Shown piece by piece: positions 2,235 through 30,502 of a stretch of DNA of 33,541 bases (the stretch's first letter is position 1; the number at the start of each line of letters is the position of its first letter). Origin of the DNA: a virus; the IMG/VR virus record IMGVR_UViG_3300030118_006691, positions 1 to 33,541 of that record; one strand, given 5' to 3'. Made by a program: the position numbers and the translations under genes. The notes below the pieces were generated by a model, which saw nothing but the letters and a program-made list of their open reading frames with translations, ran no database searches and had not been told where the DNA came from.

Positions 2235-3420
2235 AACAAAAGGATGTATTTTACCTTGGGTTCACTTATTCGGCACCATACGTGGTGATTACCGATTATG
2301 TTGTTATGCAGAGTATGTGGAACCTAATATAAAACTAGGCACTTCAGATCAGTCTTTAACAGATGTTTGGAATGGTAAACCCATGAGAAACATCAGGAAA
2401 GCAATGCTAGCAGGTAAGGTTCCCTATGAATGTGAAAAAGCGTGTTATGATCGAGAAAGTTTAGGCGACAAAAGCAACAGAATTAGTAGCAATATTAGAT
2501 TTCATCACTGGGCTAAACTACAAAAACTCACTAAAGAAGACGGGTCGATTCCTACAAAGCCTATCTATTTAGATATTAGATTCGGAAATCTTTGCAACTT
2601 TAGATGTAGAATGTGCTTGCCCGAATCATCGACCAGCTGGTATAAAGAGGCTAGAGAGATTGACTTTCTCCCTGAGTGGACAGAGACAAAACCCATTGAC
2701 AAATATACAGATAATCAAATATTTTGGGATAGTTTAGATGATATTGCGCCTTACTTGTTAGAGGTTTATTTTGCAGGAGGTGAGCCTTTTGTACAGGATG
2801 GTCACTATAAGCTACTAGAGTACCTAATTAGTAAAGGATACTCAAAGAAAATTACTTTAAGTTACAATACAAACTTAAGTTATGATAAATACAAAAAATT
2901 TGATTTAACAGAGATGTGGGATAATTTTAAAAAGGTTAAGCTATGGCCTAGTTGTGAGGGTATGGGCAAAAGAGGAGAGTATTCTAGAAAAGGCTTAGAT
3001 TGGAAAAAGTTTGAGAGCAATGTTGATAAGTTTTCTAAGCATATTGATACTATTAGTTCAGTTGTAAGTATTTGGAGTATTACAGCGATGCCAGACTTTA
3101 TCTTATGGCTAAAAAAGCGTAACTTAAATTTTTATTTAACCTCCTTAACAGGTCCGCCTTTCGCGTCTGTCACTTGTTTACCAAAAGACGCTAAAATTAC
3201 CATTAACAAAATGTATAAATCATTTATGCAAAAATATGGACATCTTTTAAATGAGCATGAGGTAGATAACATTAAAAATATCCTATCCTATATGAATGGT
3301 AGAGATGACAGCCATGAACTTCAGCTTTTCAAAGCGTTTAATGAAAAACTAGACGAGTCAAGAGACGAAAGCTTTTTGACCACGTATCCAGAGTTTTCTT
3401 CATGGTACAAAAATATATAG
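2191..3420 (+). CDS. Radical SAM protein with N-terminal twitch/SPASM-like domain
   Basis: Radical SAM enzyme: uses a [4Fe-4S] cluster to split S-adenosylmethionine and abstract hydrogen from an unknown substrate, often a peptide in this subfamily. The SAM cluster motif CX3CX2C is at Cys135, Cys139, Cys142 (LCNFRCRMC), and AGGEP (196-199) is the SAM-binding motif. An N-terminal region (Cys19, Cys37, Cys38, Cys81, Cys85; 'PWVHL' then 'RLCCY') looks like an auxiliary-cluster domain placed before, not after, the core. It lies between L-like and NlpC/P60 genes, where lambda has none. The start is unclear: there is no ATG or GTG. TTG at 2191 is the longest choice; CTG at 2203 has GGAGG (2193-2197) five bases before it. 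The conserved part begins near residue 15. The 3' end overlaps the next gene by 19 bases. Confidence 0.87.
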   Translation: MEAFLRQDELSLSNKTKGCILPWVHLFGTIRGDYRLCCYAEYVEPNIKLGTSDQSLTDVWNGKPMRNIRKAMLAGKVPYECEKACYDRESLGDKSNRISSNIRFHHWAKLQKLTKEDGSIPTKPIYLDIRFGNLCNFRCRMCLPESSTSWYKEAREIDFLPEWTETKPIDKYTDNQIFWDSLDDIAPYLLEVYFAGGEPFVQDGHYKLLEYLISKGYSKKITLSYNTNLSYDKYKKFDLTEMWDNFKKVKLWPSCEGMGKRGEYSRKGLDWKKFESNVDKFSKHIDTISSVVSIWSITAMPDFILWLKKRNLNFYLTSLTGPPFASVTCLPKDAKITINKMYKSFMQKYGHLLNEHEVDNIKNILSYMNGRDDSHELQLFKAFNEKLDESRDESFLTTYPEFSSWYKNI

Positions 3421-13118: not shown

Positions 13119-14417
13119 GTGGCGTTAACTAGAGTTACAAATCAAGTCATAGCAGCAAACGCGCTTAGCGCAGAAAAGATTGCAAATGCCACGATTGTAA
13201 GCAGGCATTTAGCTGAACAGTCTGTTGAATTAAAACATCTAGCTTCTAGTGCAAACTCGACTGCAGATGTCTCTGCGATTCAAGATAATACCATTAGACT
13301 CCAAGCTAATCTAGCTGCTAATGTAGCAGCTGCTCAGTCTAATACAACAGCTGTTGAAGCAAGAAGAGTTGCCAATATCGCTGGAGCTGTTTCAACTATT
13401 ACCACAGCAGATCTAACTGCATCTAGAGCGCTCCAATCTGGCTCTGGCGGTAAAATTGAGGTTTCCGCTGTTACCTCAACAGAACTTGGACATCTAGATG
13501 GTGTCACTTCTGCTATCCAAACGCAGATAGACGGAGTTGAATCTAGAAGAGCTGCTAATTTAACTAGCGCCACATTCACAGGAGAAGTGAATGTTAATGA
13601 TGATTTAATCGTTGCTGGAAATTTAACCGTAAGTGGAGATACCACAACTGCTAATTCTATCAACTTGGTTGTCGAAGATAGAATTATTATGCTGGCTAAC
13701 TCTGTAACAGGGTCGCCTTCTCAAGACATTGGAATTTTTATGAATCGTGGAAATCAAGGCAACGCCGCCTTTTTCTATGACGAACAGACCCAATCTTTTG
13801 TAGTAGCAGACACAAAGAGCCCCATGACGAATACGCTAGTGTCTGTCGTTACCTTGTCTAATTTATCAGTTGGTACTCTCTCTTTTAATGGAGCTGACCT
13901 TAATACCGCAATAACTAACAATGTAACTGCCTTAAATAACGAAGACACAGCTTTACAAGCAAGACTAACTACTAATGCGACTGCACTTATAGCAGAAGAT
14001 ACAGCCTTACAAGCTAGAATCACCGCAAACAATACTTTACTACACGCTAATGACTTTATAACATTTACTAGATTGAACGCTAATCTTAATGCTGTGTCTG
14101 CTAACGTTGAGATTCGTAATACACAACTGAATGCAAATATTGATGTAGTTCAAGATAATGTTGCAGCTTTAGGCGGTGGTGGAACTTTCTTTAAACCCTT
14201 TATGAATGTAAACGTAGCACTTGGGACATCTAATGTGTTCTTTGTAGGCCAAAATACGACGTCAGATGATAATGTTCTTACAGTCACGTTAGATGGTATA
14301 GTACAATCTAATTCTGAGTTTGTAATGCATCACTCGAATGATACAATTCAGTTTAAAGACGCTAGTATTCCTAGCGGAACAAAAGTGACAATATTATCAA
14401 TGATAGGCGTTGCATGA
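13119..14417 (+). CDS. Tail fibre / structural protein with repeat motifs
   Basis: Probable fibre or tail-associated structural protein (432 residues). The N-terminus ('MALTRVTNQVIAANALSAEK') and the segment 'ELGHLDGVTSAIQTQIDG' (about 122-140) are of the type I know from marine phage fibres. A beta part follows ('FTGEVNVNDDLIVAGNLTVS'), then two near-identical 'EDTALQAR(L/I)T' repeats around 275-305 and Asn/Ala-rich heptad-like stretches up to 350, consistent with a trimeric coiled coil. The C-terminal 75 residues form a compact beta domain. The start is GTG at 13119, supported by AGGAGA eight bases before. The gene ends in ATGA, sharing four bases with the radical SAM gene, so the two are translationally coupled. 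Confidence 0.75.
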   Translation: MALTRVTNQVIAANALSAEKIANATIVSRHLAEQSVELKHLASSANSTADVSAIQDNTIRLQANLAANVAAAQSNTTAVEARRVANIAGAVSTITTADLTASRALQSGSGGKIEVSAVTSTELGHLDGVTSAIQTQIDGVESRRAANLTSATFTGEVNVNDDLIVAGNLTVSGDTTTANSINLVVEDRIIMLANSVTGSPSQDIGIFMNRGNQGNAAFFYDEQTQSFVVADTKSPMTNTLVSVVTLSNLSVGTLSFNGADLNTAITNNVTALNNEDTALQARLTTNATALIAEDTALQARITANNTLLHANDFITFTRLNANLNAVSANVEIRNTQLNANIDVVQDNVAALGGGGTFFKPFMNVNVALGTSNVFFVGQNTTSDDNVLTVTLDGIVQSNSEFVMHHSNDTIQFKDASIPSGTKVTILSMIGVA

Positions 14418-15403
14418 GGAAATACAGACAACTGACTACAGAATTAACATTTAGATGTAATGCTAAATGTCCTGCTTGTCATAGGCAAAAACCTTTAACG
14501 ATTGACTTGAATGACAAGAAATACACTATCACACTTGATAACTTTAAACAGATTTTTTACCCAGAGTTACTTAAAAATTTAGAGTGGTTGATGTTAAATG
14601 GTAATTTTGGCGATTCTATAATGAATAAGCAGTTTAGACAAATTATTTCTTACGTTAAATCACACGGCACTAAATTAAAAATTCATACAAATGGAGGAAT
14701 TCATGGCGTTGATTACTGGAAAGATGTCGGTTCTATCTTAACTAAACAAGACATAATCAATTTTGATATGGATGGATTAGCTGACACTCATTCAAAGTAT
14801 AGAATCAATACCGAATTTGAAAACGTTTTTAGAAATGCATGTACAGTTATTAATAACTCTGATACTCAGGTGCATTGGAAGTATATTGTATTTGAACATA
14901 ATAGGCATCAAGTTGAAGAGGCTAGAGAGTTAGCAAGAAAACATAATTTTCATACTTTCTCAACTGTCAAAACTTCAAGAGATGTGTTTGCCCCTAAAAG
15001 TGGTAAGTTTGTTCATGCTAAAAAGACAGACGCATATGAAAAAGCTGATAAAGTTATAAGGTGTGTTTGGGATGATTGGGGCAAGTGGTATATATCACCT
15101 GAAGGTTTAGTGTTTAGGTGTTGTTGGACTGGTGGTCATTATTATGACCAAGGCGAAAAGAGGTTTTACTATCCTCCTAAGTTTGAACAAATGTTTAATG
15201 GACTTCATGTTCCTTTAGAAAAAATTCTAAGCTATGAATATTGGACTAAACTACAAAATTATTTGAAAGGTTATGAGCGCTCATTCAAGATGTGCAAGTC
15301 TCAGTGCGGTAAGATTGTTTCTTCTATAGAGAAAGAAGAAGATAATCTTAAAACTGGTAAAAAAACATATTTTGATTCTCACGCTGAAAATAGTCAAAGA
15401 TGA
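14414..15403 (+). CDS. Radical SAM protein with C-terminal twitch/SPASM-like cluster
   Basis: Second radical SAM enzyme of the window (329 residues). The SAM cluster motif CX3CX2C is Cys15, Cys19, Cys22 ('CNAKCPAC'), with 'NGNFGD' in place of GGEP and 'IHTNGG' as the next strand. The C-terminal part holds Cys217, Cys236, Cys237, Cys294 and Cys298 ('IRCVWDDWGKWYISPEG', 'RCCW', 'MCKSQC'), an auxiliary-cluster domain of the twitch/SPASM kind, common in peptide-modifying enzymes. It differs from the first radical SAM gene in length and in where the auxiliary domain lies, so it is not a recent copy. ATG overlaps the fibre stop (ATGA), and its stop overlaps the next small gene the same way. Substrate unknown; the coupled neighbours are the obvious candidates. 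Confidence 0.88.
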   Translation: MRKYRQLTTELTFRCNAKCPACHRQKPLTIDLNDKKYTITLDNFKQIFYPELLKNLEWLMLNGNFGDSIMNKQFRQIISYVKSHGTKLKIHTNGGIHGVDYWKDVGSILTKQDIINFDMDGLADTHSKYRINTEFENVFRNACTVINNSDTQVHWKYIVFEHNRHQVEEARELARKHNFHTFSTVKTSRDVFAPKSGKFVHAKKTDAYEKADKVIRCVWDDWGKWYISPEGLVFRCCWTGGHYYDQGEKRFYYPPKFEQMFNGLHVPLEKILSYEYWTKLQNYLKGYERSFKMCKSQCGKIVSSIEKEEDNLKTGKKTYFDSHAENSQR

Positions 15404-15603
15404 AAACAGTAATTAAAAAGGGAAAATTTAAGTTTGTTAGGCCCATTAATAGGGGTATTCGACGTAATGAAAAAATTAGAAAACTTGCCACCTCTGGAAA
15501 ATTAGGTTATCCTACACTTGAAAGATTTATTGCAAGGGAACGTTCGCTTGGGTATCCTATAAAGTACTCCAAGCCAATTGGTTTTAAAAGGAAACGCAGA
15601 TGA
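15400..15603 (+). CDS. Small basic protein, unknown function
   Basis: A 67-residue very basic protein: about a third of residues are Lys or Arg, including 'RRNEKIRKLA' and a C-terminal 'KRKRR'. It has no Cys and no hydrophobic segment. It overlaps the radical SAM gene by four bases (ATGA) and the next gene by four bases (ATGA), so all three should be made together. It could bind nucleic acid, be a virion component, or be a substrate of the radical SAM enzyme. The sequence does not decide, and I do not recognise a family with certainty. Confidence 0.7.
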   Translation: MKTVIKKGKFKFVRPINRGIRRNEKIRKLATSGKLGYPTLERFIARERSLGYPIKYSKPIGFKRKRR

Positions 15604-16214
15604 TTACAAAAGATGGACACACTGATGTAGCTTCCTCTCGCAGGATGTGTATGACAATAATCGAAGATGCTGAAGATATTATGAAGGCTCTTCCAAGAGA
15701 TATGGAAGCCTCACTTCCTACCTGGTGGACAAATAAACTAGCTACAACGGCAGCCTATATTAATAGTGCTCGTGACTATTTAGTTTTTATGGGGAACCCG
15801 CCAGCGTCAGAGGTTGTGACTGAGACAACTCCTATGGTAGCAGATGATCAAGTTGTAGTTGGAGAGTTCATGTCTAAGCACTTTGACATCTGTCCTAGTG
15901 CCGTTGCACTTTATAAAGACATTGAGCCAAGTGCTTTAGCGGTTGAGTCTGCAATGTTACATGATTTATTGTTTAAAATTGAAAAACAAGCAATTACAGC
16001 TAATTTAGCAACTCCAGAGATGGTCGATAAAGCTCAACACTATGCAGACATGATTAATGAGTTAGCAGAGGAAATGGATTTAGTTGATGAACACTCATAT
16101 GTTGAGGATGTACACATGGCTAAAATGAAAGAGCTTGCTGAGAATGCTGTCGAAGATGATGAGGAGGAAGATGATATGATGCCTCCGTCTGTAAGGATGA
16201 TGAATGCCTCTTAA
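15600..16214 (+). CDS. Conserved marine-phage-type protein with acidic tail, unknown function
   Basis: A 204-residue, mostly helical protein. The N-terminal block with 'DGHTDVASSRRMC' and 'LPTWWTNKLATTAAYINSAR' is one I associate with a protein of unknown function recurring in marine phage structural regions. Residues 70-180 are helical, and the C-terminus carries an acidic run (EDDEEEDD) followed by 'MMPPSVRMMNAS'. It overlaps the previous gene by four bases (ATGA) and the next by 11. The strongly acidic tail lies next to strongly basic small proteins on both sides, which could pair by charge; this is a guess. Confidence 0.7.
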   Translation: MITKDGHTDVASSRRMCMTIIEDAEDIMKALPRDMEASLPTWWTNKLATTAAYINSARDYLVFMGNPPASEVVTETTPMVADDQVVVGEFMSKHFDICPSAVALYKDIEPSALAVESAMLHDLLFKIEKQAITANLATPEMVDKAQHYADMINELAEEMDLVDEHSYVEDVHMAKMKELAENAVEDDEEEDDMMPPSVRMMNAS

Positions 16215-17610: not shown

Positions 17611-17722
17611 AGTATTTCAACGTTCTATGCCGAAAATTGTGATGACCAAAACCAGGCCATCTAAAAAAGTAAAAATGAAAGATATTTATAAAACAAAAAT
17701 TAAATATATCAAGGTGAAATAA
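17594..17722 (+). CDS. Very small basic protein (42 residues)
   Basis: ATG at 17594 opens a 42-residue frame that ends with TAA at 17722. The product is basic (12 Lys, 2 Arg; 'MAIVPEVFQRSMPKIVM' start, repeated K-I-K / K-V-K pattern at the end). It overlaps the previous gene by 17 bases, is preceded by GAAGAA close to the start, and its last 14 bases overlap the end of the leftward gene on the other strand. The overlap style matches the rest of the operon, and without it the operon would end in about 100 untranslated bases. Family unknown; could be chance. Confidence 0.45.
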   Translation: MAIVPEVFQRSMPKIVMTKTRPSKKVKMKDIYKTKIKYIKVK

Positions 17723-18458
17723 TTCTACCGTCTTTATCGTAGATTAGATTACTTTTTTTAATACTATCTTTCATCCATTGTCTATTATAAGGCGCACATA
17801 TGTATACGTGCGCCTTACTTGTTTCTAAAACTTTTTTATATATATCATCGCTGTCAACATCACAGGAGATAAAGACTAGATCATCATCTTCAAGTCTAGA
17901 GTAGTCGAAATCAATACCATCTAATTTTAATATTTTTATTTTATCTCTAGCTGGACCACCTTCCACAAGTTGTTTAGATGCTGAATACCTACTCTCTTCA
18001 ATCTCTATTCCTAACATCTTTATATGTTTAAATTTTTTATGAATATCAAAAAGAGAATAGGGGTATAAACCACTACCTACTAATATGAGCTTACTACACT
18101 TTTTAAAGAGTGGGAGTTTCTTTTTTTCTAGTAGAGTTTTATAAATCCAAGAGTTTTGTTCAGCATGTCTGTAGGCATAAAGTGCTTTTCGTCTCTCAAG
18201 TCCTTTTTTTGAGTGATATCTTAGAAATTTCTTTTCTGTTTCTTCTGACAGGTCATACTCTTTATCTTTATAAACAAAAGATGTTTTACCTAAAGAAATA
18301 GCATCTTTTTTGTTAGTGTAAAAATCATTAATAAATTCTTCATTATCTTTTTTAGCGTTTAAGAAAATAGCCTTTAATCGTCCCAGCTCTCCTGAAGCTA
18401 CTAAATTTTGCCAATCTAATCCGTAGTAGTTTTTAAGCTCTTGAATTACATAGTCCAT
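17709..18458 (-). CDS. SAM-dependent methyltransferase-like (nicotianamine-synthase-like) protein
   Basis: Rossmann-fold, probably SAM-binding, protein of 249 residues. The SAM motif is 'KLILVGSGLYPYS' (about residues 118-130) followed by 'LGIEIEESRYSASKQLVEG' and 'DDLVFISCDVD'. The pattern GSG-x-x-P with a following acidic strand resembles nicotianamine synthase and related aminopropyl- or methyl-transferases. Product unknown. ATG 18458 is chosen over GTG 18470 because a GAG-containing ribosome-like site stands seven bases before it. The gene overlaps the glycosyltransferase before it by 26 bases and is the last of the leftward operon. Its 3' end overlaps the last rightward small gene by 14 bases and contains the hairpin at 17,788. 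Confidence 0.65.
   Translation of the reverse strand: MDYVIQELKNYYGLDWQNLVASGELGRLKAIFLNAKKDNEEFINDFYTNKKDAISLGKTSFVYKDKEYDLSEETEKKFLRYHSKKGLERRKALYAYRHAEQNSWIYKTLLEKKKLPLFKKCSKLILVGSGLYPYSLFDIHKKFKHIKMLGIEIEESRYSASKQLVEGGPARDKIKILKLDGIDFDYSRLEDDDLVFISCDVDSDDIYKKVLETSKAHVYICAPYNRQWMKDSIKKSNLIYDKDGRIISP
17788..17817. terminator. Perfect 10-bp inverted repeat beyond the end of the rightward operon
   Basis: TAAGGCGCAC (17788-17797) and GTGCGCCTTA (17808-17817) form a perfect 10-base-pair stem with a 10-base loop. It lies 65 bases past the last rightward gene, inside the 3' part of the leftward methyltransferase-like gene. It is the most stable hairpin I noticed near the point where the two operons converge, and could stop rightward transcription. 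There is no direct T run after it, only a loosely T-rich stretch, so a factor-independent terminator is not certain. Confidence 0.4.
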
Positions 18459-19569
18459 TGTACATCTCACTTAAAAATTTAGCTGAATTACTAGCCCCTT
18501 TTAAGTTAAATTCAAAGGGATTAGGTTTATAGTTAGTCAGTAGTTCCTCTAATAGATTTTCAACATTGCCAGCTTCAGCCATCGTCATTACTTTAAAAAA
18601 GTCATAAGGCTCAAAAGTGTAGGCTCTAACAAATTGCTCTAATTTTTTACCACTTTGTCTCGGAATTACTATCGATGGAATTTGCCCTTGTAAAATTTCA
18701 ACGGTAGCATTATACCCTCCATAAGTGATATAAGCTGCACAGTTGGTAAGTTTATTTCTAAGCTTTGGCACATACTCAACTAGGTATATGTTTTTATTTC
18801 TTTTTCCAGATATTTTTTGATATTTATTAGCCACTGGCATAATAAAATTATAGTCAGAAAACTTTGAAGCTATCTTAGCTATGTTTTTAAATAGATATAC
18901 AGATTCATCCTTATTTAGCCCTGTTGAAACAAAAATATTATTGTTTTTCTTATTATGTTTAGGTTGTTGCTCATCACACACGTAACCAGTGTAATAGAGC
19001 ATGTGTTTGATTGATTTTATAATTTGTGATGAATGGGAGTGCCTTGTTCTATCACTTAAGAGAGGTAATATTTCTTCATCACCGTGAATTAAAATTTTAT
19101 CAGCGTAGTGGAGACAAACCACGTTCTGAGTGTATAAAACCCAATCTTGTAATGAAGTGTTGTGAGGTTCATCCCAAGGAAAGTCTCTGATTGATATAAC
19201 AATCTTAATTCCTCTTTTTTTACATTCTTCAAAATATCTAAAATACTCATGAGCGAATTGTTGCCTACAAAAAGGAAACCCTTCACAAACTAATATTTTG
19301 ACATCATACTTTTCTATAGTGTTGATAAACTGCTTTATTCTAAAGTTTATCATAGGAGCTTGCTGTATAAATTGAAAAACAGAGTTTAAGTTAGGAACAT
19401 CATAGTCCTTCAGAAAAGCAATATGTGGAACACAATAATCGATTGGAGGTAGAAACAGCTGATCCATAATAACAACGTCATTATACTTAGCTGTTTCTTC
19501 AGCAATAAATTTGATTCTTTGAGAGTGTCCTAACCCTCTATAGTATTGAGTTAAAAATCCTATAGTCAT
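18433..19569 (-). CDS. GT-B glycosyltransferase, MurG/UDP-glycosyltransferase-like
   Basis: Probable sugar transferase of 378 residues with two Rossmann-like halves. The N-terminal 'TQYYRGLGHSQRIKFIAEE' has the G-x-G-H-x-x-R loop of GT28/UDP-glycosyltransferases. The C-terminal half has 'YITYGGYNATVEILQGQIPS' and 'VIPRQSGKKLEQFVRA' (about 278-315), the nucleotide-sugar-binding pattern of MurG-type enzymes. No membrane segment is evident. It starts at ATG sharing ATGA with the end of thyX. The acceptor could be phage DNA, a virion protein, a host surface glycan or a small molecule; the sequence does not say. Confidence 0.75.
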   Translation of the reverse strand: MTIGFLTQYYRGLGHSQRIKFIAEETAKYNDVVIMDQLFLPPIDYCVPHIAFLKDYDVPNLNSVFQFIQQAPMINFRIKQFINTIEKYDVKILVCEGFPFCRQQFAHEYFRYFEECKKRGIKIVISIRDFPWDEPHNTSLQDWVLYTQNVVCLHYADKILIHGDEEILPLLSDRTRHSHSSQIIKSIKHMLYYTGYVCDEQQPKHNKKNNNIFVSTGLNKDESVYLFKNIAKIASKFSDYNFIMPVANKYQKISGKRNKNIYLVEYVPKLRNKLTNCAAYITYGGYNATVEILQGQIPSIVIPRQSGKKLEQFVRAYTFEPYDFFKVMTMAEAGNVENLLEELLTNYKPNPFEFNLKGASNSAKFLSEMYNGLCNSRA

Positions 19570-21736: not shown

Positions 21737-22181
21737 GATTAGATTGTTTTTTAACAGCCTCAATCCAGTCATCAAGTTTTGAAACTTTAAAATGACAGCC
21801 AAATGAGTTTATTTCAACATAGAATGGCACATTTGTGTCATCATTAAATGCGACAAAATCTTTTGACCGATTCCACCTAAATATAAGAAGTGGCTTCTTT
21901 TCCATAACTTCTGCTTCACGTATTGTTTGACGCCAAAAGTTAAGTAGGTCTGTTGTTTTAGAGGTTAATAGATTATTCCACTCAATGTTTTTGTAGTGTT
22001 TACATTCAGTAGCATACGGCCACCAAGCAGTGTCATGCGGAGTCCAAATGTCTCCCTTGAGATAGTCTATCGATCCTGATAGAGGTACTCGTCTAAACTC
22101 TTTTCCAAATTCAGATGTCAAATATGTAGCTATTTTCTGTTCGTATGCAGATCCTTTAGCTTTGCTTTTGTTGTGTGCCAT
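21729..22181 (-). CDS. PD-(D/E)XK nuclease, Holliday-junction-resolvase-like
   Basis: Small nuclease-fold protein of 150 residues. The PD-(D/E)XK residues line up as Glu14 ('GSAYEQKIATYL'), Asp44 ('YLKGDIW') and Glu59-x-Lys61 ('ATECKHYKN'), the arrangement of archaeal-type Hjc and phage resolvases. Resolving branched DNA before packaging, or recombination, is the likely role. ATG at 22181 lies in the end of the SGNH-like gene (26-base overlap) with a poor ribosome site, so translation is probably coupled. The substrate is inferred from family only. Confidence 0.72.
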   Translation of the reverse strand: MAHNKSKAKGSAYEQKIATYLTSEFGKEFRRVPLSGSIDYLKGDIWTPHDTAWWPYATECKHYKNIEWNNLLTSKTTDLLNFWRQTIREAEVMEKKPLLIFRWNRSKDFVAFNDDTNVPFYVEINSFGCHFKVSKLDDWIEAVKKQSNLA

Positions 22182-22824
22182 TTAGGTCGTTTAAAACTCT
22201 TTCAGAAAATCTTAAATTATCCTCAAAGCTGAGATGATTAGTAGTATTAACTAACTCAGACTCATAATCATACGGGCCAGAATTGATTAGATTGTTAAGA
22301 CCATAATAATACTCATCGTTATACTTTGAGATGTCATCATGGTAGCGTGGAAAGATGTTTCTGTAAAGTAAATATTTACATTGCAGTTTTGATGTAAGAT
22401 AATTTATGGCCCAGGCTTGATTCTGTGCGCTTAGCCTTTGTGATGATGAGATAAGATAAGACTTAATGTATTGAATAGTTGCATTTCTTACATGAGATGT
22501 AATATTACCTGATGTAATTGTGGGGTTTCTTTTGAAAGGTTTTTCTTTGACTTCATCAATGTTATGTTTAAAATCTTCTATCGTTGCAGGAGGTCCAAAC
22601 TCATCTTCATCTATTTCAAACCTTTCAGCAGCCGTAAGAGAAATAATTACATATGTAGGGTCTAAGTTATCTAGTATATACTGCAACTGATGACAGATAG
22701 CATTGTTTCCACAGCCTACAATAGAAAGATTTACAAGAGGCATTTCTAATTTATCAGCTACCATTGCGGGCCAGGTAGTCCTATCTCCTCCATAACTAAA
22801 ACTTTCACCACAAACTACTAACAT
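22156..22824 (-). CDS. SGNH/GDSL-hydrolase-like protein
   Basis: A 222-residue protein beginning 'MLVVCGESFSYGGDRTTWPA', the block I of SGNH hydrolases with Ser8 as nucleophile. 'NLSIVGCGNNAICHQLQYIL' (about 32-51) gives the Gly and Asn oxyanion-hole blocks, and 'YVIISLTAAERFE' the following strand. A late His ('TTNHLS') may be the catalytic base, but the usual Asp three residues before it is Thr, so activity is uncertain. Proteins like this occur in marine phages next to sugar or amino-acid genes and could remove or transfer acyl groups. ATG 22824 is preferred to TTG 22851 because the family block begins there; it overlaps the amidinotransferase stop by 7 bases. Confidence 0.65.
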   Translation of the reverse strand: MLVVCGESFSYGGDRTTWPAMVADKLEMPLVNLSIVGCGNNAICHQLQYILDNLDPTYVIISLTAAERFEIDEDEFGPPATIEDFKHNIDEVKEKPFKRNPTITSGNITSHVRNATIQYIKSYLISSSQRLSAQNQAWAINYLTSKLQCKYLLYRNIFPRYHDDISKYNDEYYYGLNNLINSGPYDYESELVNTTNHLSFEDNLRFSERVLNDLNGTQQKQS

Positions 22825-23840
22825 TTTCTTTTTACATCCAAAGTTACACAATGAAAACCGCCTGAGATGATTCTATCGTGTCTTAATTCTAAAGGGATTG
22901 AGTCAATGCCGTGCTGTTTAAGTTTAGTTCTGAGTTCAACTTGTTTCTTATCAACTATGGCAAGTTTATCATTTACAGATAAAAAATTCATACCAATCCA
23001 CTCACTAGCACCCCAAGGAAGACCAAAAGGAGGATGTGAGGGAGTAAAACAACTTTCGATCCAAATTTTATCCCATGACTTAAATATTTCAGGCTCGTTT
23101 TCAGGAGTGACTCGAGATGCATTGTAAACTACTAGCCCTTCTCTGACTGGTACTATAGTGCTGTCAAGGTGAGCAAAAGAGTAAAGGTTGTCAGCTATAT
23201 GAACTTTGTACTTATCACCTAAAACCCTCTGTAACCACTCCCCTCCTTTGTAGTTACCAGTATTACTAACTTGATAAAGAATGTCTTCATTGACTCTAAC
23301 ACAATTAGCTGCTTCAAATAATATCTCTTCATTATGTAAAGAAATTACACCATCTGTTTCTTCGACATAATTTTCATCATACAGAATTGGAGTGGGTGCT
23401 TGAAACCAGTTGTATCCTTCTTCATATAGTTTAGTGAATATTTTTCGATAAGCCCAGGTCTCAAATTGTCTATTCCAGTGAGGGGATGGTGTTTCAATAA
23501 GATTATTACCAATAACTAAAGTTAAATCTCTAGGACAGTGATAATGCCAGTTTTTACCGTGCCAATGAGGAGACTTAATTTCTGATTCTGCATATTGGAG
23601 ATCTGGTCTGTGAACAGTTACTCCAAGTTCTTTTAGAGTGTCTGCCAATGTATCTAAATCTTCATTTTGTTCATCAATAATCTGTTGGGGGAAGAATCCT
23701 ACGTATTTTTTAATATAATCTTCAGTATGTTCTGGAAAACAACATTTCATGAAAGCAATATTAAGTTGAGGTATTCCTGAATAATCTGCTACACCAACAA
23801 TAATTTCCTCTAAATCATCCCAATCGTTATTACACGTCAA
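22818..23840 (-). CDS. Amidinotransferase (glycine/inosamine amidinotransferase-like)
   Basis: Guanidino-group-modifying enzyme of the AGAT/StrB family, which moves an amidino group from arginine to an amine acceptor. Visible family blocks: 'CPRDLTLVIGN' (102-111), 'FEAANCVRVNEDILYQVS' (175-192), 'HLDSTIVPVREGLVVYN' with His224 and Asp226, and 'GGFHCVTLDVKRKC' with the nucleophile Cys331. By my alignment the catalytic Asp of human AGAT (Asp254) is Glu176 here, which may alter the substrate or rate. Length (340 residues) fits. The start is TTG 23840, supported by GGGAGA eight bases before it, and it overlaps the aminotransferase-like gene by 11 bases. A role in making a guanidino compound with its neighbours is inference. 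Confidence 0.85.
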   Translation of the reverse strand: MTCNNDWDDLEEIIVGVADYSGIPQLNIAFMKCCFPEHTEDYIKKYVGFFPQQIIDEQNEDLDTLADTLKELGVTVHRPDLQYAESEIKSPHWHGKNWHYHCPRDLTLVIGNNLIETPSPHWNRQFETWAYRKIFTKLYEEGYNWFQAPTPILYDENYVEETDGVISLHNEEILFEAANCVRVNEDILYQVSNTGNYKGGEWLQRVLGDKYKVHIADNLYSFAHLDSTIVPVREGLVVYNASRVTPENEPEIFKSWDKIWIESCFTPSHPPFGLPWGASEWIGMNFLSVNDKLAIVDKKQVELRTKLKQHGIDSIPLELRHDRIISGGFHCVTLDVKRKC

Positions 23841-24771
23841 GTTTCATTCTCCCATCCCAAATTCTTGAAAAACACAATCTATTAGTATTATTACCTCTAT
23901 TATACTGAGGATATTGATTATTGTGATCAATTCCAAAGTATACACAATCTGAAACTTGCAATTCCATCGCCTCACATAGCGCTATCTGTTTTTCTCTATA
24001 TTTATTGTAAGTGTAATCTGCTGAAAACTTTTTCATCATTTCTAGTCCTAGATGACAGCTTAGAATATTAATGTAATTATAGTAAGGCTCATTAATTACA
24101 TACAATTGATCTTCCCATTTTTCTCTCTGTAGTCTGATTCCGACTCTATGAAGCTCGATAGGAAATACTTTAGAAAGAGAAGAGACTATATATTTAATAC
24201 AAGGATGGCTTAAATCGAACTCTAAATCAACTGCTAAGTTTAGGTAAGCTAAATCAATCATTACTGGAACATCTAATTTATCACACTCACATAGCATATC
24301 TTCAAGATATTCGGGTACGCAACCTGTATCAGAGAAGGGAACACTGATTAAAACAACATCATCCTTTGTTATAGGTTCATCCTCAATCCAAGCAAATCTA
24401 CCTTCTGGATACCACAGTCTCGACATCATTTGGTGAAAAAAATATTCACCCTTTGCTAATCTTAATCTACGGTGTGATCTATACCTGATATAAAATTGAT
24501 AAAAGGACTCTGTTGTGCCTTGAGTAAAACACGCTTCATTAAAGTCTTCATAGCCTTTTATTTTAGGAAAAGTTGAAAACATCCACTTTTTATATACAGA
24601 GAAATATTCATTTTTAACTTCTTCCGAATTTTCTTTATTATAGTAATCATTTATAGAAAAATTATTTATGATAGTGTCTCTGTAAGAACACAGTTCGTCA
24701 TCATGCACACTATGTGCTTCTCCAAAAGGTCTATGCCTGTTATTAGGTAAATTAGTATATCTAATAGTCAT
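23830..24771 (-). CDS. PLP-dependent aminotransferase-like protein (fold type I)
   Basis: Probable pyridoxal-phosphate enzyme of 313 residues, class I/II aminotransferase type. Visible: 'TQGTTESFYQFY' (phosphate loop, 83-94), 'VPFSDTGCVPEYLEDML' (equivalent of the 'NPxNPTG' region), Asp173 with Tyr176 in 'PVMIDLAYLNLA' (pyridine-nitrogen Asp), and Lys201 in 'SSLSKVFPIELHRVGIRL' (Schiff base lysine, with Arg209/Arg213 for phosphate). It is shorter than typical enzymes (about 380-400) and seems to lack much of the small C-terminal domain, so activity needs care. Donor and acceptor are unknown. It overlaps the oxygenase-like gene before it and the amidinotransferase after it by 11 bases each. 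Confidence 0.78.
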   Translation of the reverse strand: MTIRYTNLPNNRHRPFGEAHSVHDDELCSYRDTIINNFSINDYYNKENSEEVKNEYFSVYKKWMFSTFPKIKGYEDFNEACFTQGTTESFYQFYIRYRSHRRLRLAKGEYFFHQMMSRLWYPEGRFAWIEDEPITKDDVVLISVPFSDTGCVPEYLEDMLCECDKLDVPVMIDLAYLNLAVDLEFDLSHPCIKYIVSSLSKVFPIELHRVGIRLQREKWEDQLYVINEPYYNYINILSCHLGLEMMKKFSADYTYNKYREKQIALCEAMELQVSDCVYFGIDHNNQYPQYNRGNNTNRLCFSRIWDGRMKLDV

Positions 24772-25294
24772 CTAAAAATCCTGAAAGTTGTAAAGTGAAT
24801 TTATCCTGCATTCCGCAGTTAGCGGAAAGATGAGGAATATCTTGATTAAAGATAAAACCAGTTAACTCTTCCCAGTGAGTAAAAACCTCATCATTAAATT
24901 GAATAAAGTGGCCAAGTTTCCAATCTTCTAGAAAGTAGTTAGCTCTAACCGGCATTCTTGTATCGTTTGGAAATGTTTTACGTAACTTATAAAAAGTATC
25001 TATATGTAGAGGTATAATATTACCTGGTCTTTGCTTGATAATTGATACAGTTTTAATATCCATTTGAGTTTGCTCGCTAAGTGTCTTAAAATCTAGCTCA
25101 TTATCGTTAAAAAACTTTTGGAATATAATAGTATTCCACTCGTTAAAACTATCGGGAAGCCCTCCATAGGGAGAATGTAATTCCTTCATTGCGTTCATTG
25201 AGTGATAGGAGCTGGATAGGCTTCTATAATTTTCCCAATCAATTTCCTTAATTATTGAAGTATCAAAAATGAGTTTATTTACTTTTTTAAGCAT
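24761..25294 (-). CDS. 2OG-Fe(II)-oxygenase/cupin-like protein
   Basis: A 177-residue beta-helix-core protein. 'RPGNIIPLHIDTFYKLR' (89-105) holds the His97-x-Asp99 iron motif, and 'IPHLSANCGMQDKFTLQLSG' (153-172) holds a second His155 followed ten residues later by Lys165, the usual spot for a 2-oxoglutarate-binding basic residue. 'YFLEDWKLGHFIQFND' forms the middle strands. This resembles small aspartyl/asparaginyl-hydroxylase-type oxygenases. The substrate is unknown; its place beside aminotransferase and amidinotransferase genes suggests hydroxylation of an amino acid or of a guanidino compound. It lies three bases after the upstream oxygenase gene and overlaps the downstream gene by 11. 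Confidence 0.62.
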   Translation of the reverse strand: MLKKVNKLIFDTSIIKEIDWENYRSLSSSYHSMNAMKELHSPYGGLPDSFNEWNTIIFQKFFNDNELDFKTLSEQTQMDIKTVSIIKQRPGNIIPLHIDTFYKLRKTFPNDTRMPVRANYFLEDWKLGHFIQFNDEVFTHWEELTGFIFNQDIPHLSANCGMQDKFTLQLSGFLDDY

Positions 25295-25297
25295 TTT

Positions 25298-26401
25298 CTA
25301 CTGTTCCCACGAAAAAGGACCCTTCTTTTCTACTCCCCATGATCTGTACATCTTAATATAGTCTAAATCAGATTCGTTTTCTAAAATCAATCCTTCATTA
25401 GCAAAGTGTAAAATTACCTTATTATTCAATGCTTTATTTAAAAAATAAGATGAGTCATCTGGTAGTTGATAAATACTACAAAAAACCATACCGTTTATAT
25501 CTTGATCCAAATAATGGTCTAAAACAGGCAAGTTATCAAGAAACTCATTTTCATATTGAGTGCCATTATTCTTTATGCCTATCTCTTTAATATAATTGTT
25601 AATTATAGCTCTTTGAAAGTTTTTAGGCCAGAACTTACTTAAGTTATGATTATTTGATAAATATGTTATATAACGCTGATTACTATAGTCTCTTTTTCTT
25701 AGCATAGAATGATCATCTGGGTGCCTAAAGAACCCTCCAGGAAGTCTTCTATAAAATTCCTCTCCTTTAGGTAATACATGCCAATCAAAAGATAACCTAG
25801 TTAAATTAGTCTCATTATTAACATTACCATGAATAATTTCTTGATTAAAGAGATGAGCCTGACCAGGCTCTAGATTAACAGGATAAGCTACTTTTAAACA
25901 CTCATTTTCGAACTTTTCTAAATTCCAACCGTTCTTGATGACGTTTTTTGTTATTTCTTTAGATTTTTTTGTATCAATTACCCACATTGAATTTGTATCG
26001 AAAGCACTTGTAAGAGGCATCCAAATAGTACCTTGGCCTCTTCCATTATCGTAAAATATTCCCTGATGGAATGGTAGTCTTCTAGCAATTTTTTCCTGAT
26101 TAGGGACTACTAAGTTAAGAGTAGGCTGTCTTTTTATCAAAAATGGTTTATTATCAATAAGTTCTGGTACAATTTCTTTAGCGAAAGTAGAGAGTCTTCG
26201 CATCCATTTTTCTTCAGTAGCAAAAAGATTCTGAATAGTAATCGTTAACTCGAATATTTCATGTTCTTTTAATACTTCATGTATTAAGGACAATTCTACA
26301 ACATGCGGCCACTTTTTTTGTACTTCTTCAAGCACCCACTCATTCCAAGGATACTTTTTTAAATTATAATTGATTGTTTTGTTTTCAAAATTTTGATTCA
26401 T
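25298..26401 (-). CDS. 2OG-Fe(II)-oxygenase-like protein with an HxG iron motif
   Basis: A 367-residue protein of the phytanoyl-CoA-hydroxylase/StrG-like 2OG-oxygenase type. The distal block is classical: 'LEPGQAHLFNQEIIHGN' with His191 and Arg202 in 'NLTRLSFDWHV' (iron and 2-oxoglutarate binding). The proximal motif reads 'PFHQGIFYDNGRG', that is His112-x-Gly114, where most members have His-x-Asp/Glu. Loss of that carboxylate is seen in 2OG halogenases, but it may also be a subgroup trait. The C-terminal 140 residues are an additional domain without a recognised match. ATG overlaps the preceding gene by 17 bases. Reaction unknown. Confidence 0.7.
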   Translation of the reverse strand: MNQNFENKTINYNLKKYPWNEWVLEEVQKKWPHVVELSLIHEVLKEHEIFELTITIQNLFATEEKWMRRLSTFAKEIVPELIDNKPFLIKRQPTLNLVVPNQEKIARRLPFHQGIFYDNGRGQGTIWMPLTSAFDTNSMWVIDTKKSKEITKNVIKNGWNLEKFENECLKVAYPVNLEPGQAHLFNQEIIHGNVNNETNLTRLSFDWHVLPKGEEFYRRLPGGFFRHPDDHSMLRKRDYSNQRYITYLSNNHNLSKFWPKNFQRAIINNYIKEIGIKNNGTQYENEFLDNLPVLDHYLDQDINGMVFCSIYQLPDDSSYFLNKALNNKVILHFANEGLILENESDLDYIKMYRSWGVEKKGPFSWEQ

Positions 26402-27515
26402 CTAACATCTCGTGAATTTTCTCAGTTACGTATCTCTTTTTACTAAGCCAAATATTATGGTTATGCTCTAAAACATCTTTTAATTTGTTAATATCAGGTT
26501 TGTTGTTAATGTAAACTTTTAAGGAAAGAAGAGCTTTTTGAACTCTTTTTAAATCATCTGTTTCATTATCGTAGTCTTCATCAAGTATATCAGAAAATGT
26601 CTTGTAACCTAAATGTTTTATTGCTTTAAGAGTGCCTTTTTGCCCTAATGCAATAAAAGGTTTCTTCAAAGCAAAATTTCTATTAATTGCTTCACCTACC
26701 CATACAGCGTTACACGTTAAAATATCTCCTGTGTATACTAGGTTTAAGTCAACTTTTTCAAAAGTTTTAAACAATGAAAGATTATCAAAAAGTTTATCAT
26801 TAGAAGAAAATGATAATTTATAGTCGGGTGCTACAGCAGAGGTTGAGGAAAAAATACTATTAAAATTTTTGGCTTTTTCTTTAGCACTAACAAATCCATA
26901 ATTTAGTAGTTCATGTTTCTCGAGTAAATCTAATACTAAACCTTTATCAGGAGTCTCATAAAAATACTGCATAAAACAGCAATAGTGTCTATTGTCAAAG
27001 TTTTCTAAGTTCTCAAAACTAGTGCTACCATCCCCATAATAGTAATTAAAATGAGCAGCTTTTTGGCTCGGTGCAAACTCACTTAAAACACTAAAGTGGT
27101 CATAGTCATATTTTGAATGTCTGATAAAGTTTGGATTATTTACTGTATGAAATGTTATCATAACAATTTTCTGACCGATTTCTGTATTGTTTATCATAAA
27201 TTCTAAATGATCTAAAATCTCTTGCCTTAAGGGTTCATTAATACATATTAATATTAAACCTCTACCCGAAAGGGCTCCATCTACTACATTTTTAGGTAAA
27301 GCCTTTTTTAATTTATTTTCGTTAAGCATTAATGTATTTAACAAAATCATATTATCTAAAATTATAGGATAAACCCATTTAGTCATTTTGTTGGCAAAGT
27401 AGCTATGAAAATACTCAACTTCATCATCTACATTTAAAAATAGCTCAGACCCATAGAGATTAGGAATCGGACCCTTTACAGGATGAATTTCATCTATAAG
27501 GCATTTAATCGACAT
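26385..27515 (-). CDS. Glycosyltransferase-like protein, paralogue B
   Basis: A 376-residue protein, clearly a tandem paralogue of the upstream gene. Both begin 'LIDxxHxxxGPxPNxYG', share the 'WxYPIxL' and 'LPKxVxD' blocks, and end with a helical tail 'DHNHNIW/DHNYDNF'-like. The C-terminal signature is 'EAINRNFALKKPFIALG' then 'LGYKTFSDILDEDYD' (about 270-310). I know this 'EKT..KPFI..G..TF..DESYD' signature from uncharacterised marine phage proteins that resemble the donor-binding half of GT-B/exostosin-type transferases. The E-K-T triplet is lost in this copy (E-A-I), so it may be inactive or changed. It overlaps paralogue A by 22 bases. Function unproven. Confidence 0.55.
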   Translation of the reverse strand: MSIKCLIDEIHPVKGPIPNLYGSELFLNVDDEVEYFHSYFANKMTKWVYPIILDNMILLNTLMLNENKLKKALPKNVVDGALSGRGLILICINEPLRQEILDHLEFMINNTEIGQKIVMITFHTVNNPNFIRHSKYDYDHFSVLSEFAPSQKAAHFNYYYGDGSTSFENLENFDNRHYCCFMQYFYETPDKGLVLDLLEKHELLNYGFVSAKEKAKNFNSIFSSTSAVAPDYKLSFSSNDKLFDNLSLFKTFEKVDLNLVYTGDILTCNAVWVGEAINRNFALKKPFIALGQKGTLKAIKHLGYKTFSDILDEDYDNETDDLKRVQKALLSLKVYINNKPDINKLKDVLEHNHNIWLSKKRYVTEKIHEMLDESKF

Positions 27516-28639
27516 TTTATTTCATTTTCTAAAAAGGATTTTCTCTTATGAAAATTATCATAATTATGATCAACAATATCTTTTAACTTTTTCTTATCTA
27601 ATCCGTCTTTTTTTACTTGTTTGAGTGATAGTAAGGCTTTGAAGAGTCTTTTTTTAGTGTCTGGTTCAGAGTCATAAGACTCGTCCAAAATTTCGTGAAA
27701 TGTTTCATATCCTAGATTTCTGCAGTTTTTAGCTACACCTTGCCTACCTAAAATAATAAATGGCTTTTTATAGTAAAAATTTCTGCTTGTTTTTTCAGAG
27801 AAGAAAGGATATATACCATCAAAGTCACACTCAACAACTAGATTTAATAAAGACTTATTTAAGGCCTCTTCTGTTTCAACAAAGTTGTAAACACTATTAA
27901 ACTGTGAAAATGTAGGAGTAGTTTTAACCCAAGATGCGGAAGTTTGTAAACTATTGTAAAGCTCTTTAAATTTTTTAGCTTTATCATAACACGTAACAAT
28001 GCCGTCGTCTAATAACTGTAAATCTTGTAAAAGATTTAAAATAACAAACCTTTCTTCGCTTTCGTAGAATGTAAACATAAAACATGTATATAATTTATCA
28101 TTTATACCGTCTAAGGTAGATTTAGGATATTCTCTACTATTTCCAGGTTCATTACTATAGGGAGTATGATCAACTAATTGATTATCGTCATATCTAAATC
28201 CACTTTTTATAGACGGAGTAAATACTTCAACAAAAGTACCTTTTAGTATTCTAGGATGATCTACTTCATGCAAAGTTAAGATCAGAACATTTTTAAATAT
28301 TGGATCGGAATCCATCATATACTTTAAGGTTTCTATTGTACTATCGTAAAGGGGTTCATGGTAGTAAACTATTACTAAGCCTTTACCTTTGTTTATACAA
28401 TCAAATACTTTTTTAGGTAATATTTTTTTAAACTCTGGTTTACATGATACATAACTTTCTGGACTTAAGGTAGCAGGAAGAACTATTGGATAAATCCATT
28501 TTTCTATTTCATCAGCAAAATAGGATGATCTTATCGTCGTGTTATGTTCGAGTTCTGGTGGTACAGGTAATTGACCGTAAAAATTAGGAACAGGACCGTC
28601 ATCTCGGTGTACATGATCTATCAATACATTAATATTCAT
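27494..28639 (-). CDS. Glycosyltransferase-like protein, paralogue A
   Basis: First of a tandem pair (381 residues). The C-terminal signature is intact: 'PFFSEKTSRNFYYKKPFIIL' then 'LGYETFHEILDESYD' (about 278-320), which in other proteins lies in the donor-binding part of GT-B-like transferases. The N-terminal half has alternating strands and helices ('KGLVIVYYHEPLYDSTIETL', 'NVLILTLHEVDHPRI') consistent with a Rossmann-like domain. Transfer of a sugar is plausible but not shown. The ATG lies 11 bases inside the end of phoH. Duplication followed by unequal change in the second copy suggests a heteromer or two different substrates. Confidence 0.58.
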   Translation of the reverse strand: MNINVLIDHVHRDDGPVPNFYGQLPVPPELEHNTTIRSSYFADEIEKWIYPIVLPATLSPESYVSCKPEFKKILPKKVFDCINKGKGLVIVYYHEPLYDSTIETLKYMMDSDPIFKNVLILTLHEVDHPRILKGTFVEVFTPSIKSGFRYDDNQLVDHTPYSNEPGNSREYPKSTLDGINDKLYTCFMFTFYESEERFVILNLLQDLQLLDDGIVTCYDKAKKFKELYNSLQTSASWVKTTPTFSQFNSVYNFVETEEALNKSLLNLVVECDFDGIYPFFSEKTSRNFYYKKPFIILGRQGVAKNCRNLGYETFHEILDESYDSEPDTKKRLFKALLSLKQVKKDGLDKKKLKDIVDHNYDNFHKRKSFLENEIKCRLNAL

Positions 28640-29336: not shown

Positions 29337-29606
29337 TTAATTCCTTTTTAAGAAAGTGTCAGGGATATCTAAAGTATTTATATACTTTACAAGGTCATTA
29401 TAACCTCCAACAACTTTTCCATCAATGATTATTTGTGGAACTGATCTTGCATCGGGGACCATTTCCAGTAATTGTTCTCTAGACCAATCTTGGCCTATTA
29501 GTCTCTCTTCAAATTCAATATTATTATCTTTTAAAAGGTGCTTTGCTTTTAAACAAAAAGCACAATTTGTTTTGCTCCAAACAATTACCTTAGTTTGTTT
29601 TTCCAT
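29337..29606 (-). CDS. Glutaredoxin
   Basis: An 89-residue thiol-disulfide protein with a dithiol active site Cys15-Ala-Phe-Cys18, the cis-proline block 'ARSVPQIIIDGKVVGGYND' and the usual beta-alpha order. It most likely re-reduces the C-terminal cysteine pair of the ribonucleotide reductase encoded in the same operon, as phage T4 glutaredoxin does. ATG overlaps the end of the epimerase gene by 22 bases. Confidence 0.93.
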   Translation of the reverse strand: MEKQTKVIVWSKTNCAFCLKAKHLLKDNNIEFEERLIGQDWSREQLLEMVPDARSVPQIIIDGKVVGGYNDLVKYINTLDIPDTFLKRN

Positions 29607-30502
29607 ATTTCAATTGTCCTATCTAAACCATCATTTAAAGTAACTTTAGGCTCCCAGCCTAATTTTTTGGTAATTAGCTTATTATTTGAATTTAGCCAAT
29701 AAATTTCTCCAGCTCTAAACAGTTTTGTATCCCAATTTATCTTGCCTTTCCAGTTAAGCTTTTCGGCAATCAGAGTAGCATAGTCTTTTATTTTGATTGG
29801 ATTGTCTGGTCCTATGGTAAATATATTTCCATCATTACATTTTTCAGGATTATTTATAACTGAAAGCCAAGCATCAATCATATCATCAACATAAATGAAG
29901 TTTCTAAAAGGTTCACTATACCCTAGATTACATTCATCAGGATTGTTTAGCATTTGAGATATAATTTGTTCTGTCACAAAAAACGCATTGTCTTTTCTGC
30001 CATAACAATTTGTCTGTCTTAACGCAGTAAAGGGCAGTCCCAAACATCTGTTTGCGTACTCTAGATACTTTTCACAAGCATACTTAGCAACTGCATAGGG
30101 AGCGTTGGGGTTAGGTAGTGTGTTCTCGTCAAAGGCTATAAAATTATCAGGAATTCCTTTTTTCTCAACTTCGTCAGAAATCGGTTGCCATCCATACACT
30201 TCCATTGTGCTAGCGAATACAAAATTTTTAAGATTTTTAACTTTTGTTGCAGCCTCAATAAGATTCACAGTGCCTACGTAATTTACTTCGCTAAAAGTAA
30301 TTTGCTCATAAAAGCTCTGTTCAACTTCAGTCCGTGCAGCTAAGTGGACTATGATATCTGGACTATGCGCTAATACTTCTCTAGCTACTGCATCATGATC
30401 TCGTAAGTCACTTTTTAGCTCGTGTACAAAATGGCTTCGTTTAAGTTCAGGAGTTATATGTTGACCTAAAAATCCAGAGGCTCCTGTAATTAATATTTTC
30501 AT
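29585..30502 (-). CDS. NAD-dependent sugar-nucleotide epimerase/dehydratase
   Basis: Extended short-chain dehydrogenase of 305 residues acting on nucleotide sugars. NAD-binding 'ITGASGFLGQHI' (5-16), 'VHLAART' (52-58), 'FASTMEVYG' (96-104) and the catalytic Tyr136-x-x-x-Lys140 in 'APYAVAKYACEKY' are present, followed by 'LRQTNCYG' and 'FRNFIYVDDMIDAW', typical for UDP-glucose-4-epimerase or dTDP-glucose-dehydratase relatives. It may supply sugars to the glycosyltransferase-like proteins of this operon. ATG shares one base with the mazG stop. Confidence 0.9.
   Translation of the reverse strand: MKILITGASGFLGQHITPELKRSHFVHELKSDLRDHDAVAREVLAHSPDIIVHLAARTEVEQSFYEQITFSEVNYVGTVNLIEAATKVKNLKNFVFASTMEVYGWQPISDEVEKKGIPDNFIAFDENTLPNPNAPYAVAKYACEKYLEYANRCLGLPFTALRQTNCYGRKDNAFFVTEQIISQMLNNPDECNLGYSEPFRNFIYVDDMIDAWLSVINNPEKCNDGNIFTIGPDNPIKIKDYATLIAEKLNWKGKINWDTKLFRAGEIYWLNSNNKLITKKLGWEPKVTLNDGLDRTIEIWKNKLR

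Follow-up and report, generated by a model that had tools for sequence, protein, structure and literature searches.

A conserved viral gene block that may encode the synthesis and transfer of a guanidino-sugar

The IMG/VR virus record IMGVR_UViG_3300030118_006691, analysed over its whole length of 33,541 nucleotides (33.5 kb; hereafter the window), carries on its minus strand a block of seven genes at positions 22156-28639, in which neighbours overlap by 11-34 nt or stand 3 nt apart. Read in their own direction, they encode two candidate glycosyltransferases (GTb and GTa), two Fe(II)/2-oxoglutarate (2OG) oxygenase-like proteins (OG2 and OG1), a pyridoxal phosphate-dependent aminotransferase (PLP), an arginine-dependent amidinotransferase (AmidT) and an SGNH-like hydrolase candidate. 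A first-pass annotation of the letters had described seven consecutive, overlapping or adjacent genes, and all seven open reading frames were recovered on one strand, at the coordinates it had given. We give an approximately even chance to the interpretation that the block is a phage carbohydrate-tailoring cassette which makes a guanidino-sugar as a glycan precursor. The earlier idea of a tailoring island is backed by the adjacency of the core genes in many phages, by the coupling of AmidT to aminotransferases and by the relation of OG2 to carbohydrate clusters. Phage islands for glycosyl or oxidative tailoring are known but have almost never been tied to a chemistry, while the compact set found here predicts amination followed by guanidinylation. 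This predicted chemistry, carried by four genes, belongs to abundant marine phages.

In the proposed route, PLP would aminate a precursor, either an oxo-sugar or a comparable polyol, and AmidT would move the amidino group of arginine onto that amine, giving a guanidino-sugar which OG1 may then hydroxylate. OG2 would perform a second C-H oxidation, which may be a halogenation, and the GT-B glycosyltransferases would attach the product to an acceptor. This acceptor is probably a glycan, either of the host surface or of the virion, although there may be none if a free metabolite is released. In those cassettes that include SGNH, this protein would trim an acyl group or transfer it. Sequence conservation supports AmidT, PLP and OG1 as catalytically competent, and we infer the order of the reactions, the sugar substrate, the product, the possible halogenation, the acceptor or target and the benefit to the phage.

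The core genes and their enzymes

Dozens of contigs from marine viruses share the core order OG2-OG1-PLP-AmidT. Neighbourhoods were counted over 80 non-redundant viral loci that had been fetched by AmidT or OG2, and the counts are conditional on those genes: PLP lies directly 5' of AmidT in 46/66 cases, OG1 directly 5' of PLP in 50/60 and OG2 directly 5' of OG1 in 42/62, and among the 41 OG2 loci with enough flank AmidT is present in 36, PLP in 37 and OG1 in 34. The core is kept at about 45% identity, sometimes reordered, in L089, L097 and L104. Chance co-location of the core genes is ruled out by this gene order, conserved across divergent contigs. SGNH is present in 8 of 25 loci (AmidT being directly 5' of it in 17/18), and at least one GTa/GTb homologue stands near AmidT in 19 of 25, in varying number and place; as both vary, chance co-location is still open for SGNH and the glycosyltransferases. 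The question raised in the first-pass annotation, whether all seven genes stay together in other phages, is thus answered positively for the four core genes and partly in the negative for the others. Two divergently oriented OG2 copies with an epimerase in between occur in the cassettes of L097, L101 and L102, and a B12-binding radical S-adenosylmethionine (SAM) homologue lies between OG2 and OG1 in L129, L131-L133, L135 and L138.

When an AmidT profile was compared to the PDB, the best match was the inosamine-phosphate amidinotransferase StrB1 (1bwd, E=8e-123), with SxtG, HsvA and GATM ranking lower. The triad D105/H224/C331 is invariant in every homologous stretch covering these positions (116, 114 and 111 stretches, respectively; some loci overlap and such residue counts, here and below, are not independent). 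StrB1-type homology and an intact Asp-His-Cys triad thus bear out the naming of this gene as an amidinotransferase. For PLP the Aminotran_1_2 cut-off is passed and the PLP-binding Asp, the Schiff-base Lys and an Arg (D173/K201/R209) are invariant, in agreement with its aminotransferase-like annotation; its nearest solved structures are HisC and AspC, with weak matches only (E 0.03). OG1 has an invariant iron triad, H97-x-D99...H155, as expected from its 2OG-oxygenase-like annotation, and is a probable hydroxylase. Among Pfam families Asp_Arg_Hydrox was weakly matched in a few OG1 members (best 0.013), and no solved structure was matched in the PDB.

The aminotransferase of the window matches Aminotran_1_2 only, not the DegT/StrS (StsC-like) type which is paired with StrB. 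AmidT is nevertheless coupled to both of these unrelated families, to Aminotran_1_2 in the window and to DegT/StrS in other phages: a short DegT/StrS protein overlaps AmidT in L073, and in cyanophage S-SCSM2R a homologue is found close to AmidT. Such a non-orthologous exchange of two unrelated aminotransferases beside one amidinotransferase suggests that guanidinylation acts on the product of the amination, the passage from oxo group to amine to guanidine being the conserved logic. A homologue of the UDP-glucose/GDP-mannose dehydrogenases is found in the AmidT neighbourhood of L073 and directly precedes PLP-OG1-AmidT in L078. The DegT/StrS aminotransferases of L073 (9277-10005) and L082 (9293-9880) are unusually short, 195-242 aa, and retain an apparent catalytic Lys.

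Table 1. Positions in the window of the seven-gene block, of two regions matched within OG2 and of two further genes of sugar metabolism.
Feature	Positions	Strand	Description
SGNH	22156-22824	minus	SGNH-like hydrolase candidate; open reading frame opens at 22851 (TTG); optional cassette member
AmidT	22818-23840	minus	Arginine-dependent amidinotransferase, StrB1/GATM family; full-length homology
PLP	23830-24771	minus	Fold-type I aminotransferase, class I/II, HisC-like; Pfam Aminotran_1_2 above cut-off
OG1	24761-25294	minus	Fe(II)/2OG oxygenase, Asp_Arg_Hydrox-like; iron triad H-x-D...H
OG2	25298-26401	minus	Two-domain protein: N-terminal PhyH/SpoChoClust_2-like 2OG domain and C-terminal SpoChoClust_1-like domain
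OG2, TIGR04323 (SpoChoClust_1) match	25352-25666	minus	44 bits, E 3.5e-13; cut-off 55
OG2, TIGR04324 (SpoChoClust_2) match	25784-26305	minus	77 bits, E 1.8e-23; cut-off 150
GTa	26385-27515	minus	Paralogue of GTb (34% identity); presumed GT-B glycosyltransferase
GTb	27494-28639	minus	GT-B-fold glycosyltransferase candidate; model pLDDT 80
Epimerase	29585-30502	minus	NAD-dependent epimerase/dehydratase, sugar-nucleotide type; Pfam Epimerase 9e-41
Further glycosyltransferase	18433-19569	minus	GT28-type; Glyco_tran_28_C above cut-off; conserved downstream in many relatives

OG2, its carbohydrate-cluster relatives and its iron site

Judged by homology, OG2 is a fusion of proteins related to the NCBIfam 'sporadic carbohydrate cluster' pair TIGR04324 and TIGR04323, and so ties together two bacterial families annotated without a function. 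In its predicted model (pLDDT 90) residues 1-236 form the 2OG-oxygenase domain and residues about 240-358 a C-terminal domain, whose predicted fold is that of serine-recombinase catalytic domains (Z 12.3 over 117 residues, root mean square deviation 2.6). The oxygenase domain is PhyH-like by Pfam (best member 8e-6) and the fold matches agree; a profile of this N-terminal part matched PhyH and PtlH in the PDB, while a whole-protein profile gave only spurious S2 matches there. No match to OG2 was found by tblastn in a phage collection of 50,697 records of cultured phages. Sequence, model and fold thus uphold the earlier 2OG-oxygenase-like label of OG2, in which the fusion and an H-x-G site (below) had gone unremarked.

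In bacteria the counterparts of the two halves are encoded by two adjacent genes, both scoring above the cut-off in five of five tested genomes; in 6/6 genomes inspected, a Pfam Epimerase gene is found no more than about 5 kb from the pair. Both OG2 halves are homologous to this pair; the phage version differs in being fused, in having H-x-G for H-x-D and in scoring under the cut-offs. As the halves of OG2 are related to families found near sugar epimerases, a carbohydrate substrate is pointed to. An epimerase is also encoded in the window, and it likely supplies a sugar; its homologues adjoin AmidT or OG2 homologues in L069-L072, L097, L101 and L102, and in L069-L072 the order AmidT-OG1-OG1 is followed by an epimerase 66-70% identical to that of the window. 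The dehydrogenase, epimerase and SpoChoClust links together suggest that the substrate is a sugar. In alphaproteobacteria (L154, L155, L163, L166 and others) a SpoChoClust_1 gene comes after that of the SpoChoClust_2 oxygenase, and the phage counterpart of SpoChoClust_1 is recombinase-like in its predicted fold.

The iron site separates the viral proteins from their cellular relatives. All 104 viral stretches covering the motif have H112-x-G114, and H191 and R202 are invariant in 109/109 (the stretches partly overlap and represent 66 distinct sequences), whereas H-x-D is present in 23 of 24 aligned cellular relatives, the remaining one (L146) being misaligned and reading H-F-D by eye. A regular expression recovered H-x-D in 20 of 23 further cellular relatives, a set that overlaps the 24 aligned, and the pattern missed three. 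In a tree the H-x-G sequences fall on one side of a branch with support 98/94, long branches being flagged, and at the same site PtlH reads PFHQD where the phage OG2 reads PFHQG. This difference within one family makes a change from hydroxylase to halogenase testable.

In halogenases of the Fe/2OG superfamily this position is usually taken by Ala or Gly (PMC8407142), and the predicted OG2 matches their site pattern, with a 2OG fold, two His, a Gly replacing the carboxylate and a 2OG-binding Arg. It shares the fold, the two His ligands and the Gly in place of Asp/Glu with SyrB2, CurA, WelO5 and BesD (PMC8407142), and differs in that its close relatives are H-x-D enzymes. The probability that OG2 is a halogenase is in our judgement a little under one half. 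We lean slightly towards its being a hydroxylase that works without a carboxylate ligand, or a non-catalytic partner. AspH hydroxylates despite an HXG...H motif (PMC10947486), an Asp-to-Gly change alone made no halogenase of prolyl 4-hydroxylase (PMC2767507), and hydroxylases are ranked top for the OG2 model by VIA-align, as PhyH and PtlH are matched by sequence profiles. Against this, the top five Foldseek matches of the model are all the CurA halogenase domain, and H112, G114, H191 and R202 are each invariant in 104-109 viral stretches, unlike a decaying site. A more far-reaching scenario, which we consider rather unlikely, combines halogenation with the guanidino-sugar pathway: OG2 would be a phage non-heme iron halogenase whose ancestor, a hydroxylase of the carbohydrate-cluster kind, lost the iron carboxylate and was fused to a recombinase-like domain, and infected marine bacteria or virions would carry a guanidino glycan with chlorine or bromine. 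The characterised phage halogenase VirX1 is flavin-dependent (PMC8407142), and literature searches, which reached few subscription papers, turned up no description of a phage Fe/2OG halogenase.

Known systems and competing interpretations

The first-pass annotation had compared the block to streptomycin-type clusters. This comparison fits the fold family of the amidinotransferase, StrB1 being the closest PDB relative of AmidT, and streptomycin-type aminocyclitol pathways likewise use transamination followed by amidino transfer. It does not fit the pathway: a complete streptomycin-type pathway in the window is ruled out by the differing aminotransferase family, and no cyclitol gene was seen in this fragment, inositol-phosphate or inositol dehydrogenase genes being absent from the larger window genes scanned. 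Enzymes of the OG1 and OG2 types are not known to be part of streptomycin-type pathways. The best reading is that the cassette works like these pathways without being a member of them.

The statement that no such phage pathway had been described was too strong as to kind. Campylobacter phages CP220 and CPt10 carry interchangeable modules of radical SAM and amidinotransferase genes which are swapped whole (PMC2853527); their amidinotransferase is homologous to AmidT (28% identity over 98%) and adjoins nucleotide-diphospho-sugar-transferase-like genes, but five radical SAM genes replace the 2OG enzymes and PLP, and no homologue of OG2, OG1 or PLP was found there. A cluster of cyanophage S-SSM6a has been predicted to make a halogenated sugar/amino-acid metabolite (PMC7824862); there too, 2OG enzymes stand together with sugar enzymes and a predicted halogenase, but carbamoyltransferases and a HemK-like methylase are present instead of AmidT and PLP. 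In Synechococcus phage S-SCSM2R, AmidT (36% identity) is immediately preceded by an OG1-like gene, glycosyltransferases stand on both sides, and DegT-like and radical SAM genes are present; this island differs in lacking OG2 and an Aminotran_1_2 aminotransferase of the window's family. The novelty claim stands for the exact set: no description of AmidT, Aminotran_1_2, OG1 and the OG2 fusion together turned up in the same literature searches.

Several observations weigh against a guanidino-sugar. Most cassettes of close relatives are without the epimerase, both SpoChoClust matches fall under the curated cut-offs, so that OG2 is homologous to these families and not filed as a member, and the name 'carbohydrate cluster' itself rests on gene context. 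The glycosyltransferases vary in number and place, and glycosylation may serve a function of its own. In addition, PLP is of the HisC/AspC type, enzymes which often act on amino acids, and glycine and other amines are among the substrates of the AmidT relatives GATM, SxtG and HsvA. These last two points, together with the use of free amino acids by GriE and proline hydroxylase H11, VIA-align fold neighbours of OG2, and with the comparable product predicted for S-SSM6a (PMC7824862), would favour a small diffusible metabolite, such as a modified guanidino amino acid or an aminocyclitol, acting as signal, toxin or osmolyte, with the glycosyltransferases unrelated or decorating only. We consider this unlikely in view of the carbohydrate-cluster relation of OG2, the frequent glycosyltransferase neighbours, and the UDP-glucose/GDP-mannose dehydrogenase and DegT partners in L073 and L078.

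The position of the cassette within a directon of nucleotide metabolism, among ribonucleotide reductase (RNR), ThyX, dUTPase-like, exonuclease and MazG genes, would be in keeping with the building of an amino, guanidino or glycosyl group on a base of the virion DNA. Other phages hypermodify thymidines by way of PLP enzymes and glycosyltransferases. Genes for DNA hypermodification have also been reported in pelagiphages (PMC9599517). However, no thymidylate-synthase homologue (PF00303, the origin of base hydroxymethylases) was found in 15 related virus records, which are possibly fragments, and QueC appeared only as weak partial matches; DNA hypermodification is thus improbable.

Quite improbable, finally, is a post-translational modification of virion proteins such as tail fibres, performed together with radical SAM enzymes encoded beside fibre genes. 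Pelagibacter phage Mosig has a similar island next to tail-fibre genes, the tail region of the window contains radical SAM genes, and OG1 is related to Asp/Arg-hydroxylases. However, the cassette stands in the other directon, its conserved partners are sugar enzymes, and protein side chains would be unusual substrates for a PLP aminotransferase and an amidinotransferase.

Peripheral genes and the rest of the window

Of the two glycosyltransferase-like genes named by the first-pass annotation, GTb is predicted to have the GT-B fold, all top 50 structural rows for its model being GT-B glycosyltransferases (Z 10-11), and GTa is presumed to share it by homology to GTb; Pfam gave no credible match to either, nor did tblastn find GTb in the phage collection. 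The SGNH-like label draws some support from a conserved G-[EDN]-S motif and a C-terminal His, G15, S17 and H206 being invariant in all stretches covering them (34, 34 and 32), although its family support is the weakest of the seven, as Lipase_GDSL_2 was matched in one relative only (E 0.06). As the relatives L001 and L025 start there, the SGNH gene probably begins at the ATG at about 22824 and not at the TTG at 22851.

The minus-strand directon comprises RNR, MazG, the sugar epimerase, glutaredoxin, PhoH, the seven-gene block, a PDDEXK nuclease, a 5'-3' exonuclease, ThyX and the GT28-type glycosyltransferase, as well as a dUTPase-like protein judged by eye and without a Pfam match. It thus includes the epimerase and the further glycosyltransferase which the first-pass annotation had assigned to the same operon as the block. 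A scan for promoters and terminators gave fewer matches than in shuffles and was uninformative. Beside the GT28-type gene a 253-aa protein (17709-18470, minus strand) is conserved, a Rossmann methyltransferase by eye, with no Pfam or PHROG match.

The plus-strand tail region is siphovirus-like (Phage_tail_L, phage tail J-type, tail collar). Its tail protein at 654-2234 had no match in the phage collection, and the host was thus not identifiable in that way. A SPASM-domain radical SAM enzyme (2191-3420, plus strand) is encoded between two tail genes, an odd place for one. At 15400-16214 (plus strand) are genes of 67 and 204 aa, kept beside a radical SAM gene; a haem-oxygenase-like match at 15600-16214 (E 0.006) is below cut-off and was not relied on. 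The radical SAM protein in question (14414-15403, plus strand; phrog_21308, E 7e-32) directly follows a fibre-like virion gene, is kept with its neighbours in relatives and has counterparts of the radical SAM type, related to it, in CP220 and Mosig.

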